Assembly (NCBI GenBank): GCA_016735295.1
Contig: JAERRU010000009.1
Location: 1-64,000 of the forward strand
Length of the DNA: 64,000 bases
Direction: 5' to 3'
From: SAR324 cluster bacterium
GTDB taxonomy: Bacteria > SAR324 > XYD2-FULL-50-16 > JAERRU01
The notes beneath the pieces were generated by a model that searched no databases, was not told the origin of the DNA, and worked only from the letters and a program-made list of their open reading frames with translations. Below are positions 46,100 through 53,020 of this stretch, piece by piece (within the stretch, counting starts at the first letter, position 1; each line of letters starts with the position of its first letter). Both the position numbers and the translations under genes were made by a program.

Positions 46100-49000
46100 A
46101 TGCAAGAGGTATATTCTATTCCTTTTATCTCTAATACTATCCCTTCTATGGCCGCGGCTAAGCGTGATCCTGAGATGCTTTCCTTTTTAGAAACTATGAG
46201 ATTTGCCGCCTTAAGGTCGAATTTCATTTTTTTGCGGAGCAAGGATCGGGATCAATTTTCTCATTTGGGATATAGAGCAGATAAACATGTAGAGAGCAGT
46301 GTTGAGTTTTTAAGGCAGATAAGGCGTTATCATTATGGAATTATTCATTTGCACCTTAGTAGCCATAAAGATGCTTCTTTTGCCGTTCCTTTGATTGGCA
46401 GCTCGGTTAGCTCACCTGATTACCAGGTGTATGTTAGCGGGGTAAATTTTTTAGAGAAAAAGAAACTACAAGCCACTTTAGATCCTAGTTTCAAGAGACT
46501 TCCTTCTGGGTTTCACGATGGCGATGCGATTGATATTTTGGTAAATTTCAATAAAGTATTTTATTTAGAGCATTTCCGGCAAAGCATCCAAGACATTCCT
46601 ACTTTTAGTGATCGGCAAAAGGATGAATATATCAGCATTGCCCAAAGGGCTAGTCTTTTCAATCGACGAAATGGTAAATTAACTGCTGATTATATTAAAT
46701 TAATCAATGTCAATTTGATTAGTGAGTATTGGAATAAATATAGCAACCTATATTTGCAAATCACCACCTTTCTTGGCCAAAGCGAGAATCAGAACAAGCT
46801 TTATAGTGCCAAATTGTTATTATCAAGAATGATATCTGAGGCTAGGTGGGTTAGAATTAAGACTGATATATTTAAGCATTTGCCATTTGAATATCAAGAA
46901 ACCATTGGGAAGGTAAAAAATAAGACAGATTTTATTGATTATATTGCCACTGTGTTGTTGAATTTACGAAATGACGAGCGGCATCATAAAATTTGTAATA
47001 TATTATATAAACACCTATTGGTGCAGTCTTTACAGACAGATTCGGCTATTTTTAAGAAGATTAAATTTATTGATCAAGAATCTAAGGCGGATAATTATTT
47101 AAGCCAGCAATTAACTTCTTTTGTAACTAATTTCAATAAGTTGATTTCCGTGAAAGATGATAATTCATCAGATAAAGAGCAAATTCCTGACGAGGCTAAA
47201 AAATTATATACCGCTGAAATGGTTGGCTTACTGGGGCACTCATTAGGGGTTGGTATTACGGGTAATTTAAGCACTTATGAATATGACAATTACCGAATTT
47301 CGGTGGGTAATTTCTTGAAAAGCGACATTTATTCAGTGGATAAAATGGTGATTACCCCCCTCATGAAAGATAGTAAGAACATGGGGTTTTTGATATCAAA
47401 ATTACTTCCTAAAATCACCATCAACAAAATTACTGCCTGTAATATCGTAGATGATATACTTAAATATATAAATCCATATTTTCAATTTTTCAAAGATTTG
47501 CATGATATTGCTGAAGCCAGGCAAGTTGGGGAAGTGGCAAAGGACATGCAAAAGCAGCAGGTTGCCTATTCCAAAAAGATTATTAATATTTTGCCTAGGT
47601 TAGATTATCTGCTTTGTGTGGAATCTGCTAGTGCGATAGAAAAATCTATCTTTATTGATGCTAAGCGAGCCATTGGTATGCAGGTGTTTCCTACTGATTA
47701 TCAAACTTTAGATGATTATAGGCACAAGGCGGGATATAGCCAAATAGTAGTGCCGCATGTTCACACTTTACATCCCTTAAAGCTAGATCCTGGCTGGTTA
47801 TATGATGCATATACTTACTTCATTAAATATCAGGTTCATCGCCATTTATCGCAATTATTAAGCTCAAAACCTGATTTTTTAAAGAAGGGTGAGGTGAATA
47901 GGTATAATTATTTTATACAATATTTATTAGATAAGAGCATTTACCTAGGCTATGAGCAGTTAAAAAAGATTTTACTGAGTTACAAAAAGTGGGATATCCA
48001 CAATTTAGTGGAATTTGGTTATGAAACTAATATTTTACCTAGTGTGGATTACTATAATCATCTTTTGGATTATGATAATTGGCTGCCTAAAAATCAAAAA
48101 GAAGTCGATAAAAAATCGGTTATTCTTCCTTTGATAGATGATAAAAATAGTTTACATAATTATTTTAATCAACAATATGCTAACTGGCAAGATGAGTTGG
48201 GCAAGCGGACTGATGTTAGGTCAACTAGAAAAACTGATAAATGGATTACGGCATTTTTTCAAAATCTGATCAATGGCAATGTTCATGATATCTTTTCTGA
48301 AGATGCCCGGCGGCTATTACCGATCAATAATTGGCAATCTGAGCTACAATCTAAGATACAAGAGCATTTTAAGAATAATTTTAGTCAATTAAAAATTTTA
48401 CCTGAATATATTTTAATTAGATTAACTACGGATCAATCTTTTATCAGATATTTTTGTTTTAATTTTTTGATAGAGCTAGGAGATAATATGATTCCCATAA
48501 TATTTTATACTAGCAATGCTGATTTAGCTAAATATAATTGGAAATGGAACAATTTAATAGAGTCTCTAAAGCAAGAATGTCCTAATTTAATCAATAGTTT
48601 AAGACATGCATGGCGGAGAATATGCACTTATCAAACTATTTATTTGCGGTTAGTTCATGGGGCATCGTTAATTTTACTTGGTGATGTGATGCAGCGGTAT
48701 TTGCAGCAAGATGATCAAGAAGAAAAAGGATTGACGAAGTTTAGGAGAACATTGGATAAAAGCAAATTAATAATTTGCGAGGGAGATAGTAAAGAAGATG
48801 GAAAAAAGGTACTCAACCGAATTAAAGATAAAGGGGTTACTATCGCCCTTAATGAAGCGTTAGAAAGGTTTTATAGCTTTTATAAGGCCGATGAGAGGAA
48901 AGATAGATTAACCACCATGTTAGCTGAAATAAATCATCAAATGGCCGCTATTCCATATATCAAATATGCACCCTATAATATAAAGAGATTTCGCTTTAAT

Positions 49001-49507
49001 ATTAGTAAGATAGAAGATATTTTATCGGCAAAGATATCTGAATTAGATGATTTTAAGCTAAAAGAAGTATTAAATACCACTGAAGAAGTGTGGGGTGTTT
49101 ATACAAAATTAATTGAAGATGAGGTCTCTTATCCCTATAAATATAGATATCTGCATATAGCCTTTAATAATGCATATATTAAGATTAACAACATAGATCG
49201 AGGTGAGCTATTAGATTTTTTGAGTGCGGGCAGTAACTCAAGTCGAACAAAAAAGGCGGGTCATGGTTTTTTATTAAATCAATTAAGAGAGGCCATTTTA
49301 TTTAAAGATGTTTTGTCTGATAAAAAGCTTTTCTTTATTTATGCTGGTCAAAGCAGATCAACTGAGTTAGGTTATTTATTAGAGAGTTTACGGATAGTTA
49401 AGGGCTTAGAGGCTGAAATATATGTAGATAACCGAGATATTGATGACGACTTAAGAAAGCATTTGTTATTATATATAAGTCCTAGCAATATAATATCATT
49501 ACACTAA
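46100..49507 (+). CDS. Uncharacterised 1135-aa protein
   Basis: Uninterrupted long ORF directly after 45576..46091; no domain I recognise. Confidence 0.85.
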   Translation: MQEVYSIPFISNTIPSMAAAKRDPEMLSFLETMRFAALRSNFIFLRSKDRDQFSHLGYRADKHVESSVEFLRQIRRYHYGIIHLHLSSHKDASFAVPLIGSSVSSPDYQVYVSGVNFLEKKKLQATLDPSFKRLPSGFHDGDAIDILVNFNKVFYLEHFRQSIQDIPTFSDRQKDEYISIAQRASLFNRRNGKLTADYIKLINVNLISEYWNKYSNLYLQITTFLGQSENQNKLYSAKLLLSRMISEARWVRIKTDIFKHLPFEYQETIGKVKNKTDFIDYIATVLLNLRNDERHHKICNILYKHLLVQSLQTDSAIFKKIKFIDQESKADNYLSQQLTSFVTNFNKLISVKDDNSSDKEQIPDEAKKLYTAEMVGLLGHSLGVGITGNLSTYEYDNYRISVGNFLKSDIYSVDKMVITPLMKDSKNMGFLISKLLPKITINKITACNIVDDILKYINPYFQFFKDLHDIAEARQVGEVAKDMQKQQVAYSKKIINILPRLDYLLCVESASAIEKSIFIDAKRAIGMQVFPTDYQTLDDYRHKAGYSQIVVPHVHTLHPLKLDPGWLYDAYTYFIKYQVHRHLSQLLSSKPDFLKKGEVNRYNYFIQYLLDKSIYLGYEQLKKILLSYKKWDIHNLVEFGYETNILPSVDYYNHLLDYDNWLPKNQKEVDKKSVILPLIDDKNSLHNYFNQQYANWQDELGKRTDVRSTRKTDKWITAFFQNLINGNVHDIFSEDARRLLPINNWQSELQSKIQEHFKNNFSQLKILPEYILIRLTTDQSFIRYFCFNFLIELGDNMIPIIFYTSNADLAKYNWKWNNLIESLKQECPNLINSLRHAWRRICTYQTIYLRLVHGASLILLGDVMQRYLQQDDQEEKGLTKFRRTLDKSKLIICEGDSKEDGKKVLNRIKDKGVTIALNEALERFYSFYKADERKDRLTTMLAEINHQMAAIPYIKYAPYNIKRFRFNISKIEDILSAKISELDDFKLKEVLNTTEEVWGVYTKLIEDEVSYPYKYRYLHIAFNNAYIKINNIDRGELLDFLSAGSNSSRTKKAGHGFLLNQLREAILFKDVLSDKKLFFIYAGQSRSTELGYLLESLRIVKGLEAEIYVDNRDIDDDLRKHLLLYISPSNIISLH

Positions 49508-49530: not shown

Positions 49531-50532
49531 ATGATAATAGTTACAGGAGGGGCTGGTTTTATTGGTAGTTGTTTGATTAAATATTTAAATGAACGTGGAT
49601 ATTTTAATATTTTAGTGGTGGATCAGCTTGATAATGCTGAGAAATGGAAAAATTTACTTAAGATTAGTTTTAATGATTTCATCGCTAAAGATGATTTACT
49701 AGCAAAGCTAAAGCAAATACCTAAGGTTAGTGAGATTTATCATTTAGGATCAGATAGCTTAACTGATAGCCAAGATGGTAATTATATTATGCAAAATAAT
49801 TATGAATATACAAAGAATTTGTGTAGGCATGCAATTATTAATCGGGCTAAGTTTGTATATGCATCTAGTGCGGGCACTTATGGTGCGGGAGAGCATGGCT
49901 ATGATGATCTTGAGACGGGGTTAGTTAATTTAAAACCGCTTGATTTATATGAATATTCCAAACATTTATTTGATTTATATGCCCAGCGTAATGATTTATT
50001 TAGAAAACATCGAATAATAGGACTTAAATATTTTGATGTATATGGCCCAGCAGAGGAGCATAAAGGAGATATGGGCAGTATGGTGCTGCGGGCTTATCTT
50101 CAATATAAAAAAAGTAAAGTAGTTAAGCTTTTTAAATCTTATCGTAAAGATATTGAGCATGGAGAGCAAAAGCGAGATTTTATTTATGTTAAAGACGCAG
50201 TCAAGCTCACTTATTATTTAGCACATCATCCTGAGAGGCTCGGCGGTATTTTCAATATAGGAAGTGGAGAGGCTCATAGTTTTAATGAGTTGGTGGCAGC
50301 TTTAGCTGAGGCGGTGGGTCGTAATATAGAGCCTACTTATGTTGCTATGCCTGTAAAAATTAGGGCTAAATATCAATATTTTATTGAAGCAAATATTAAT
50401 AAGTTACTAATCCAAACGACATTACCAAGTTATCCATTACCTAAGGGGTACACTTTGAAGGAAGGTATTTTTGATTATGTGGTGAACTATATGGAAAAGG
50501 AAAATTTTTCGATTAATACTTTACCTGAGTAA
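49531..50532 (+). CDS. hldD: ADP-L-glycero-D-manno-heptose 6-epimerase-like
   Basis: MIIVTGGAGFIGSCLIKYLNERG, YASSAGTYGAGEHGYDD, YEYSKHLFD, LKYFDVYGPAEEHKGDM, EQKRDFIYVKD. Confidence 0.93.
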   Translation: MIIVTGGAGFIGSCLIKYLNERGYFNILVVDQLDNAEKWKNLLKISFNDFIAKDDLLAKLKQIPKVSEIYHLGSDSLTDSQDGNYIMQNNYEYTKNLCRHAIINRAKFVYASSAGTYGAGEHGYDDLETGLVNLKPLDLYEYSKHLFDLYAQRNDLFRKHRIIGLKYFDVYGPAEEHKGDMGSMVLRAYLQYKKSKVVKLFKSYRKDIEHGEQKRDFIYVKDAVKLTYYLAHHPERLGGIFNIGSGEAHSFNELVAALAEAVGRNIEPTYVAMPVKIRAKYQYFIEANINKLLIQTTLPSYPLPKGYTLKEGIFDYVVNYMEKENFSINTLPE

Positions 50533-50539
50533 AAAAAAA

Positions 50540-51394
50540 ATGATAAATAAGCGTAAATTTTCAGTAGGAGATATAAAATTAGGAGGCGAGCAACTTTTTT
50601 TAATAGCGGGGCCTTGCGTTATTGAAGATGAGAAATCTACTCTTTTAATCGCAGAAAAATTAAAAATAGTGGTGGATGAATTAAAAATTCCTACTATCTT
50701 CAAATCATCTTTTCAAAAGGATAATCGCAGTTCGTTACAAAATTATGTGGGGCCGGGGTTAAAAAAGGGATTAAATATATTGAGCAAAGTTAAGCAAGAA
50801 TTTGGATTTACTTTGTTATCTGATATCCACTGTGCGACTCAAGCAAATGAGGTGGCAGAGGTGCTTGATGTTATTCAAATACCAGCATATTTATGTATGC
50901 AAAGTTCCTTGCTCCAAGCCGCGGCTAAAACTGGGCGGTGTGTTAATATCAAACACGGTCAATTTTTAGCACCTAAAAATATGAAATATCCACTTGCTAA
51001 GTGCGTGGAGAGTGGAAATGATAATATCATCTTAACCGAGAGAGGGCATAGCTTTGGATATAATGATTTGATAGTGGATCCGCGGGCTTTTTACGAATTA
51101 AATCAACTTGGCTATCCGGTGGTATTTGACATCACTCATTCAATAAGGAAGTATGGCGTACCTAGTGCCAAAAAAGAGGGTGGGGCCAGGCATTATATTC
51201 CACTTTTGGCTAGAGCTGGGGCGGCGGCGGGCATTGATGGTGTTTTTATTGAAGTTCACCATAATCCAGATGCGGCTAAATGTGACGCTGCTAGCCAGTT
51301 AAATGTGGATAATCTTAAGAAATTACTTGAAGTAATAAATGATTTTCATAAATTAGAAGTTAAACATCGTAATAATAATGGAACTATATCTTGA
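50540..51394 (+). CDS. kdsA: 3-deoxy-8-phosphooctulonate synthase (Cys-type metal site)
   Basis: LIAGPCVIED, KSSFQKDNRSS, VNIKHGQFLAPKNMKYPLAK, LTERGHSFGYNDLIVDPRAF, PVVFDITHSIRKYG. Confidence 0.95.
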   Translation: MINKRKFSVGDIKLGGEQLFLIAGPCVIEDEKSTLLIAEKLKIVVDELKIPTIFKSSFQKDNRSSLQNYVGPGLKKGLNILSKVKQEFGFTLLSDIHCATQANEVAEVLDVIQIPAYLCMQSSLLQAAAKTGRCVNIKHGQFLAPKNMKYPLAKCVESGNDNIILTERGHSFGYNDLIVDPRAFYELNQLGYPVVFDITHSIRKYGVPSAKKEGGARHYIPLLARAGAAAGIDGVFIEVHHNPDAAKCDAASQLNVDNLKKLLEVINDFHKLEVKHRNNNGTIS

Positions 51395-52400
51395 TTCGGC
51401 TAATCTTACAGAGATTAAAGAAGCTTTTAGCTTAGGTGGCCTGAGTGGGCTTACTACCACACCAACTTTTATGCACCGAGAGGGTGTTAAGAATTTGGAG
51501 CAAACTATTTTGGAGCTATCCACCATAGTGCCTATCTTGCAAATAGAGGCGTTGGGCAGTGATGCTAAAGCTATTGTGGGAGAGGCTGAACGATTGGTTG
51601 ATTTGGGGTTGGATAAAAGTAAAACTGTTTTTAAAATACCGGTATCTATTGAGGGAGTGAAGGCTTGTTACCAAATGGTTAAATCTGGGCTGATGGTTAA
51701 CATACATTTGGTTTATACTTTACAGCAGGCATATATGGCGATGGCTTCGGGAGCTACTTATGTTTGTCCTTTAGTGGGGCGGTTGCAAGACCAGGGGCAC
51801 GACGCTTTGAATTTGGTAGCTGATTGTGTGGAAGTGGTGGAGCGATATGATTATAAGAGTAAAATAATGTTTTCTTCGGTTAGAAATGTCGAGCACATTA
51901 AAAATGCCCTTCAGGTGGGGGCGCATGCCTGCACTGTTCCTTGGGGCATTATGCAAAAGTTAACTAATAATCACTTTACTGATATTGGGACTAGGGAATT
52001 TTTTGAACATACTAATTTGTTAACTATTAAGGTAAAAGACGTGGTGGCTAGGGCGCCTAAAGTTTTATTGACTAGCAGTTTAAATGATGGATTAGTGCAA
52101 ATGACTAAATCAAAATTGGGAGCGGTGGCGATAGTTGATGAAAATAATTTTGTTAAAGGAATTTTCACTGATGGAGATTTGCGAAGAACTATCGAGAGCA
52201 AGGGTGTGTCTAGTTTAACGGATAAATTTTCATCTTTTAATTGGCAAAAACCGGTAGGGGTTTCTCCTGAGAATACTTTAGATGACGCCTTGAAGATATT
52301 TAAACAACAAAAAATTGATACCTTAATCGTAGAGCAAGCTGGTAAATATTTAGGTATGTTGGATGTGCAAGAATTATTATCGGTTATTTCCCAAAGCTAG
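51378..52400 (+). CDS. FSA/transaldolase-like domain fused to a KdsD-like CBS pair
   Basis: N-term MELYLDSANLTEIKEAFSLGGLSGLTTTPTFM, FKIPVSIEG (Lys86), ATYVCPLVGRLQDQGHD; C-term LLTIKVKDVVA...LGAVAIVDENNFVKGIFTDGDLRRTIES... Confidence 0.9.
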   Translation: MELYLDSANLTEIKEAFSLGGLSGLTTTPTFMHREGVKNLEQTILELSTIVPILQIEALGSDAKAIVGEAERLVDLGLDKSKTVFKIPVSIEGVKACYQMVKSGLMVNIHLVYTLQQAYMAMASGATYVCPLVGRLQDQGHDALNLVADCVEVVERYDYKSKIMFSSVRNVEHIKNALQVGAHACTVPWGIMQKLTNNHFTDIGTREFFEHTNLLTIKVKDVVARAPKVLLTSSLNDGLVQMTKSKLGAVAIVDENNFVKGIFTDGDLRRTIESKGVSSLTDKFSSFNWQKPVGVSPENTLDDALKIFKQQKIDTLIVEQAGKYLGMLDVQELLSVISQS

Positions 52401-52426: not shown

Positions 52427-53020
52427 TTGAAAAAACTGGTAGCGCGCATTTCTAATATAGTTACCTCATTTCGTATTTTTGGGGCTTTATTAGCGGCATT
52501 TTGTTATTGGCAAGGGTTGTCAATATTAACTTTGGGGATATTATTATCTTTAATCGGTAGTAATTTGTTAGTTAATTGGTGGGCTAGGTCATTTAGTGAT
52601 GAGAGCTTGCTCGAAAATAGGTTTAATTTTATTGCTGATAAGGTGCTAATAATTAGTATGATTATAATGTTAGCACTAGATAACCAATTATATATTAATT
52701 ATGTTTTGCTAGTATTGGCGAGGAATATAAGCCAGATTAGTTTTTTCCTTGTTTTGGTAGGGATAATGAAAATGCCACTTAAAGCGGGAGCTAATATTTT
52801 TTCAAATATGGCTAGCTATCTTATTTATCTGCTATTTATACTAATTATAGCTAAACAGGCATTTTTTTCGGTGCTAACAGAAAATAATGCTATTATGGTG
52901 CTTGATAAATCTATTTACGCCATATTGCTAACTAGCATTCTTTTTGAGTTTTACATGCTAGCTGATCATTTCAAACAACTTGGCCGAGTGATAAGGCGAG
53001 AGACAGATATTTTTCACTAA
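52427..53020 (+). CDS. CDP-alcohol phosphatidyltransferase homologue with degenerate catalytic motif
   Basis: PgsA-like topology, N-terminal ISNIVTSFRIFGALLAAFCYW; motif region LVNWWARSFSDESLLENRFNFIADKVLI lacks the DG and most catalytic Asp. Confidence 0.65.
   Translation: MKKLVARISNIVTSFRIFGALLAAFCYWQGLSILTLGILLSLIGSNLLVNWWARSFSDESLLENRFNFIADKVLIISMIIMLALDNQLYINYVLLVLARNISQISFFLVLVGIMKMPLKAGANIFSNMASYLIYLLFILIIAKQAFFSVLTENNAIMVLDKSIYAILLTSILFEFYMLADHFKQLGRVIRRETDIFH

Follow-up and report, generated by a model that had tools for sequence, protein, structure and literature searches.

A transaldolase-CBS fusion encoded beside kdsA as a probable replacement for the arabinose-5-phosphate isomerase KdsD

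Most Gram-negative bacteria cannot live without Kdo, the sugar that connects lipid A with the core of lipopolysaccharide (LPS). Its first dedicated precursor is arabinose 5-phosphate (A5P), and KdsD, the textbook enzyme for the first committed step of the pathway, is a proposed drug target. KdsD and its relatives KpsF and GutQ (TIGR00393) join a SIS catalytic domain to a CBS pair, while the SIS-only A5P isomerase of the Bacteroides fragilis type represents another variant A5P source in Bacteroidota. Escherichia coli FsaA and FsaB also form A5P, from glycolaldehyde and glyceraldehyde 3-phosphate (G3P) (PMC6298115, PMC9947464), and a synthetic A5P shunt was estimated to need >1 mM glycolaldehyde (PMC6298115). 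Proton transfer in FsaA runs predominantly through Tyr131, which also binds the catalytic water together with Gln59 and Thr109; donor contacts are made by Asp6 and Asn28 (PMC13259622). Among 5.39 million open-access papers, we found no description of a transaldolase-CBS protein, of a missing kdsD, or of A5P in connection with a transaldolase.

Here, we analyzed a 64,000-nt stretch of DNA from a SAR324 cluster bacterium (referred to as the window), in which a gene overlapping kdsA encodes a transaldolase-type barrel fused to a KdsD-type CBS pair. We propose that this protein would supply A5P to KdsA in bacteria without KdsD; the TalC-type transaldolase barrel would carry out catalysis, and the CBS pair of KdsD origin would be kept for regulation. 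The relevant features of the window are as follows.

49531..50532, + strand: hldD, ADP-glyceromanno-heptose 6-epimerase, 333 aa (TIGR02197, 327 bits; cut-off, 274.6)
50540..51394, + strand: kdsA, KDO-8-phosphate synthase, 284 aa (KDO8P_synth, 329 bits; curated cut-off, 314)
51378..52400, + strand: transaldolase-CBS fusion, 340 aa, ATG start; proposed alternative A5P-forming enzyme (KdsD replacement)
51384..52037, + strand: TAL/FSA TIM barrel, residues 3-220 of the fusion (Pfam TAL_FSA, alignments, and model)
52026..52388, + strand: KdsD/KpsF-type CBS pair, residues ~217-337 of the fusion, with the invariant motif FTDGD.RR (profiles, alignment, and PDB match)

Domain architecture and distribution of the fusion

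The kdsA stop codon (TGA) is located at 51392-51394, and the ATG of the fusion gene lies inside kdsA at 51378. The two frames share 17 nt, as the sequence-only reading that preceded this analysis had noted. On the same strand, the LPS-core gene hldD ends 7 nt upstream of kdsA. Directly upstream of hldD, a 1,135-aa ORF (46100-49507) matches no Pfam family at E ≤ 0.01, and 26 nt past the fusion gene there is a CDP-alcohol phosphatidyltransferase-like ORF (52427-53020; Pfam score below cut-off, TTG start).

Pfam TAL_FSA matches residues 3-220 of the fusion (4e-34, above cut-off), and Pfam CBS matches two stretches of the C-terminus (1e-14); Pfam detected no other domain, and the SIS catalytic domain is missing. 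The C-terminus aligns with positions 153-267 of the KpsF model TIGR00393 (NCBIfam), the match beginning only at position 153 and scoring 76.5 bits, under the cut-off of 203.7, and the KdsD and GutQ models of NCBIfam align with it over their CBS part only. In the PDB, the C-terminus comes closest to CBS pairs from arabinose-5-phosphate isomerases (4o9k, 3fna, and 3k2v), and the barrel comes closest to small transaldolases. An AlphaFold2 model (mean pLDDT, 92) consists of a TIM barrel and a CBS-like second half, and Foldseek placed the barrel on the transaldolase of Thermotoga maritima with a TM-score of 0.92 (by target) and an rmsd of 1.4 Å. Together with the Pfam match and the invariance of Lys86, this structural match supports that the protein has the features of the transaldolase/FSA superfamily, i.e., a TIM barrel with a Schiff-base lysine on the conserved strand. 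The profiles, the PDB matches, and the model thus agree with the earlier reading that a TAL/FSA barrel and a CBS pair resembling the C-terminus of KdsD are encoded in one ORF.

That reading had described the barrel as FSA/transaldolase-like. Of the two, TalC-type transaldolase is the nearer relative: the best-matching structures are transaldolases, Glu57 and Asn108 are TAL-like, and the score against the FSA equivalog TIGR00875 (159.9 bits) is under the cut-off of 245.95. Compared to the TalC-type small transaldolases (T. maritima TM0295, 1vpx; Thermoplasma acidophilum, 3s0c), the barrel has the same fold, ~32% sequence identity, and the shared residues Lys86, Asp6, Glu57, Asn108, Arg135, and Arg169; it differs by the added C-terminal CBS pair and the fixed substitutions Asn28→Thr, Thr110→His, Phe132→Leu, Asp137→Gln, and Ala165/166→Phe/Ser. 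Compared to FSA (E. coli FsaA, 1l6w), which makes A5P from glycolaldehyde and G3P, it shares the fold and the Schiff-base lysine but only ~25% identity, and it has none of Tyr131, Thr109, Asn28, and Gln59. On the basis of the sub-cut-off score and the missing FSA residues, we rejected the idea that the fusion is an ordinary FSA. With KdsD/KpsF/GutQ, it has in common a CBS pair of the same type including the FTDGDLRR motif and the same genomic and pathway position, whereas the SIS domain is replaced by an unrelated TIM barrel as the catalytic half; the barrel is likewise distinct from the B. fragilis-type isomerase, which is still a SIS protein.

Using the fusion protein as the sole query, we scanned 85,462 species genomes by short peptide patterns, a search that is not exhaustive, and obtained 79 loci. 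Of these, 76 encode the same fusion family, almost all at full length and with 51-64% identity. Because the same full-length fusion recurs in these 76 further loci, it represents a genuine conserved architecture rather than a chance event. Carriers are found among Cytophagales and other Bacteroidota, Desulfobacterales and other Desulfobacterota/"Deltaproteobacteria," Ignavibacteriota (Ignavibacteriales), and Chlorobiota MAGs; many are MAGs, and the isolates include Raineya, Thermonema, Thermoflexibacter, Runella, and Labilibacter. In a Desulfobacterota genome (G535 C166:24030-24656), the match is confined to the barrel (residues 1-210, 59% identity) of a 323-aa frame, the CBS part of which may have diverged or been replaced.

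In 37 of the 76 loci, kdsA is present, nearly always immediately upstream of the fusion gene. The downstream gene most often encodes a KdsC-like HAD phosphatase or is kdsB, and kdtA is also found in two loci (L109 and L064). The fusion is, therefore, linked to kdsA, kdsB, a KdsC-like phosphatase, or kdtA in many genomes, as expected for a member of Kdo operons. The HAD phosphatases score 39-55 bits against the KdsC models (cut-off, 208) and may represent a KdsC variant of their own; such distantly KdsC-like proteins are encoded beside the fusion at, e.g., L047:9029-9760, L071:9020-9718, L088:9005-9712, and L082:3150-3785. In L109 (9325-12414), genes for an aminotransferase and an iron alcohol dehydrogenase, which we take to resemble KdnA and KdnB of 8-amino-Kdo synthesis, lie between the fusion gene and kdsB; an aminotransferase gene is also found in L100.

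Near exclusion of KdsD and the fusion

The source assembly, which comprises 1.52 Mb in 42 contigs and has a completeness of 89.9%, contains kdsA as well as kdsB, the latter scoring above its cut-off. By profile search, the only SIS domains are those of one 615-aa GlmS-like protein. With the threshold relaxed to E ≤ 10, the matches to TIGR00393 were still limited to the GlmS-like protein and to CBS parts, with no SIS-CBS protein among them; SIS-only isomerases are also missing from this genome. The genome-wide search for a canonical kdsD that the sequence-only reading had suggested as a check thus returned none in this assembly, so that neither of the observations which that reading had named as contrary to it, a canonical KdsD and a C-terminus other than a CBS pair, was made. 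For this one genome, the missing KdsD could reflect the ~90% completeness of the assembly.

Among 47 named fusion-carrying genomes, KdsD above cut-off is absent from 45, while 2 (G073 and G064) have both proteins. For a controlled survey, we sampled 247 genomes from the Bacteroidota class that includes Thermonema, with a completeness filter of 90, and searched them for the fusion, KdsD, and KdsA, scoring SIS-only isomerases, which appear in this class as partial TIGR00393 matches to positions 1-152, as KdsD. Of the 187 genomes with kdsA, 146 have KdsD only, 39 have the fusion only, 1 (G331) has both, and 1, with a weak kdsA match (E 7e-54), has neither (Fisher's exact test, P = 6e-38, shared ancestry being ignored). 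Close fusions are confined to genomes with kdsA (40 of 40). Among 195 Desulfobacterota genomes, all from the class to which a Desulfobacteraceae genome belongs, KdsD is absent from 7 of the 8 with the fusion compared to 15 of the 187 others, 172 of which have KdsD (P = 7e-7, shared ancestry again being ignored). The pattern, accordingly, recurs in two phyla in addition to the source lineage. Four divergent fusions (35-37% identity) are present in genomes without kdsA; in all four, Lys86 has given way to another residue, three times Arg and once Ser, and Arg135 and His110 are also lost. Judged by these residues, the catalytic site is decayed where KdsA is gone. We note that these proteins (L124, L125, L126, and L127), despite having lost most catalytic residues, are full length and encoded in a conserved neighborhood.

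Because KdsD and the fusion nearly exclude each other among genomes with kdsA, we consider it quite likely that the fusion is a non-orthologous replacement for KdsD as an A5P source. The central idea of the sequence-only reading, an aldolase barrel that takes the place of the SIS isomerase, keeps the KdsD CBS pair, and feeds KdsA, receives strong genomic support from the absence of KdsD in this assembly, its near exclusion in two classes, and the adjacency to kdsA, kdsB, KdsC-like, and kdtA genes. A5P is probably the product, as suggested by the domains, the gene neighborhood, the exclusion of KdsD, the co-occurrence with kdsA, the conserved site, and the loss of the lysine without kdsA. A counterpoint to this role is that G073, G064, and G331 carry both KdsD and the fusion. 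By analogy, the CBS pair would probably sense a cytidine nucleotide such as CMP-Kdo, a ligand that we presume from the structures of KdsD CBS pairs.

Other explanations for this pattern appear less satisfactory. If the fusion were an ordinary transaldolase/FSA of central metabolism that has a CBS regulator and happens to lie near kdsA, A5P would come from another, unrecognized enzyme. The fold is compatible with this idea, and so is a second full-length fusion in Labilibacter marinus, which is encoded near genes for a transketolase and an FBPase-like protein (see below). However, neither the exclusion of KdsD nor the confinement of close fusions to genomes with kdsA would be expected for a central enzyme, Asn28, Thr110, and Phe132 are lost in every full-length member, and the source assembly has a separate transaldolase-like match (G000 C5:81488, 323-aa frame); we, therefore, regard this explanation as improbable. 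It is considerably less probable still that the fusion regulates or scaffolds KdsA instead of acting as a catalyst: although CBS domains serve in regulation and some divergent copies lack the lysine, the catalytic-site residues are invariant in genomes with kdsA, the losses occur in genomes without kdsA, and A5P would be left without a source. Finally, that the absence of KdsD is an artifact of incomplete assemblies is hardly credible. Even though the completeness of the source genome is 89.9% and MAGs make up many of the carriers, KdsD is absent from 39 of the 40 Bacteroidota genomes with the fusion and kdsA but from only 1 of the 147 with kdsA and no fusion at the same completeness filter, and the carriers include isolates of the five genera listed above.

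The second L. marinus copy (L104, 5117-9023) is encoded away from kdsA, downstream of a separate FSA gene and a transketolase gene and upstream of a phosphomannomutase-like gene, with the FBPase-like gene also nearby; the other copy adjoins kdsA (L102). The L104 protein keeps all family residues in the part examined. It represents a paralogue in sugar-phosphate metabolism, and not every copy of the fusion need serve Kdo synthesis.

Active site and candidate chemistry

An alignment was built from 77 members of the fusion family, 20 separate TalC/FSA proteins, and FsaA of E. coli, the sequence of which was checked against 1l6w. Apart from partial sequences, Asp6, Glu57, Lys86, Asn108, His110, Leu132, Arg135, Ser167, and Arg169 are fixed in the family, and all are present in the fusion of the window together with the family-specific Thr28. 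All full-length members carry the substitutions Asn28→Thr, Thr110→His, Phe/Tyr132→Leu, Asp137→Gln, and Ala166→Ser, whereas the 20 separate TAL/FSA proteins have Asn, Thr, and Phe/Tyr at positions 28, 110, and 132. The residue corresponding to Gln59 of FsaA is Glu57, as in TAL. Consequently, the family has neither the Tyr131 proton shuttle and the Gln59/Thr109 water site of FSA, with Leu132, Glu57, and His110 at these positions, nor the donor- and water-site residues Asn28, Thr110, and Phe132 of TalC. Because the FsaA equivalents of Asn28, Thr110, and Phe/Tyr132 belong to its donor and water sites, the alignment indicates that the fusion keeps the lysine but has remodeled both sites, the predicted water site now containing a histidine.

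If the fusion makes A5P, three types of chemistry come into consideration. Activity as a pentose-5-phosphate isomerase or epimerase appears somewhat more probable than all else, an aldol reaction from glycolaldehyde is distinctly less probable, and any other chemistry is rather improbable. Pentose-5-phosphate chemistry could proceed by epimerization of R5P at C2 through an imine/enaminol on Lys86, or by non-covalent isomerization of Ru5P in which His110 and Glu57 would act as an acid-base pair together with Lys86; the aldol option would be the addition of glycolaldehyde to G3P. We rank the pentose-phosphate options higher, if with less certainty than the role itself, given the abundance of pentose phosphates, the missing FSA proton shuttle, and the fact that no source of glycolaldehyde was recognized in the clusters. 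When F6P is bound to a transaldolase, its C2 is attached to the lysine and its phosphate sits on C6, four carbons further along. With C1 as the point of attachment, A5P or R5P would place the phosphate at the same distance, and the loss of Asn28 fits a substrate that lacks the C1 hydroxymethyl group of F6P. By the same reasoning, we rejected a Schiff-base route on the ketone of Ru5P, as an imine at C2 would shorten the distance between phosphate and lysine by one carbon compared to F6P, and the nitrogen would stay on C2 after proton transfer.

An FSA-type aldolase that forms an imine between Lys86 and the donor glycolaldehyde and adds it to G3P to yield A5P, the route that the sequence-only reading had put forward as one possibility, is the most serious competitor. 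The conservation of Lys86, Arg135, and Arg169 speaks for it, as does the precedent of FsaA and FsaB in E. coli (PMC6298115, PMC9947464). A5P, moreover, matches F6P from C2 to C6 in skeleton and stereochemistry and so fits the barrel geometry, and the loss of the donor-contacting Asn28 (PMC13259622) would suit a donor without a C1 hydroxymethyl group. On the other hand, the equivalents of Tyr131, the dominant proton shuttle of FSA, Thr109, and Asn28 are replaced throughout the family, free glycolaldehyde is not an abundant metabolite, no gene for its production was recognized in the clusters examined, and the synthetic A5P shunt would need it at >1 mM (PMC6298115). We, therefore, consider this aldolase unlikely, though still worthy of consideration. 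A more far-reaching reading, which we hold to be somewhat less likely than not, is that the barrel, its water and donor site rebuilt with Thr28, His110, and Leu132, is a pentose-5-phosphate epimerase/isomerase that would use a lysine imine and a histidine under the control of a KdsD-derived CBS pair, across a Gram-negative branch. To our knowledge, such chemistry has no precedent in the transaldolase fold.

Origin of the kdsA-fusion pair and implications

In 8 of 10 genomes of the same order, a separate TalC-like gene is located directly upstream of a full kdsD, with gaps of -1 to 120 nt. In these pairs (L028-L031, L033, L034, L036, and L037), an acyltransferase-like gene (LpxL type, by eye) is next where the sequence was read. 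Loss of the SIS part from such a pair would give the fusion, which suggests it as a model for the first origin. A local fusion event in the source lineage was rejected, as the fusion and the KdsA of the window are far closer to those of distant phyla. The fusion is 51-64% identical to fusions of distant phyla compared to 31-35% within the same order, and for KdsA, identity reaches 66% with fusion-adjacent proteins of other phyla and 44-48% within the order. In a tree, KdsA of the window groups with fusion-adjacent KdsA proteins, and KdsA proteins of the same order are set apart by a branch with 100/100 support; the window branch is long, and the tree does not pin down the exact donor. Because both proteins are far closer to those of distant phyla than to those of their own order, it is more likely that kdsA and the fusion gene were acquired together by transfer.

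While the pathway step and both folds are already known, the enzyme for this step would be new if our proposal is correct, and the fusion would be a clear case in which a regulatory CBS pair was retained and the catalytic domain exchanged. For many Cytophagales, Marinilabiliales, Desulfobacterales, and Ignavibacteria, it would also explain why their annotated genomes and metabolic models seem to have no A5P source.
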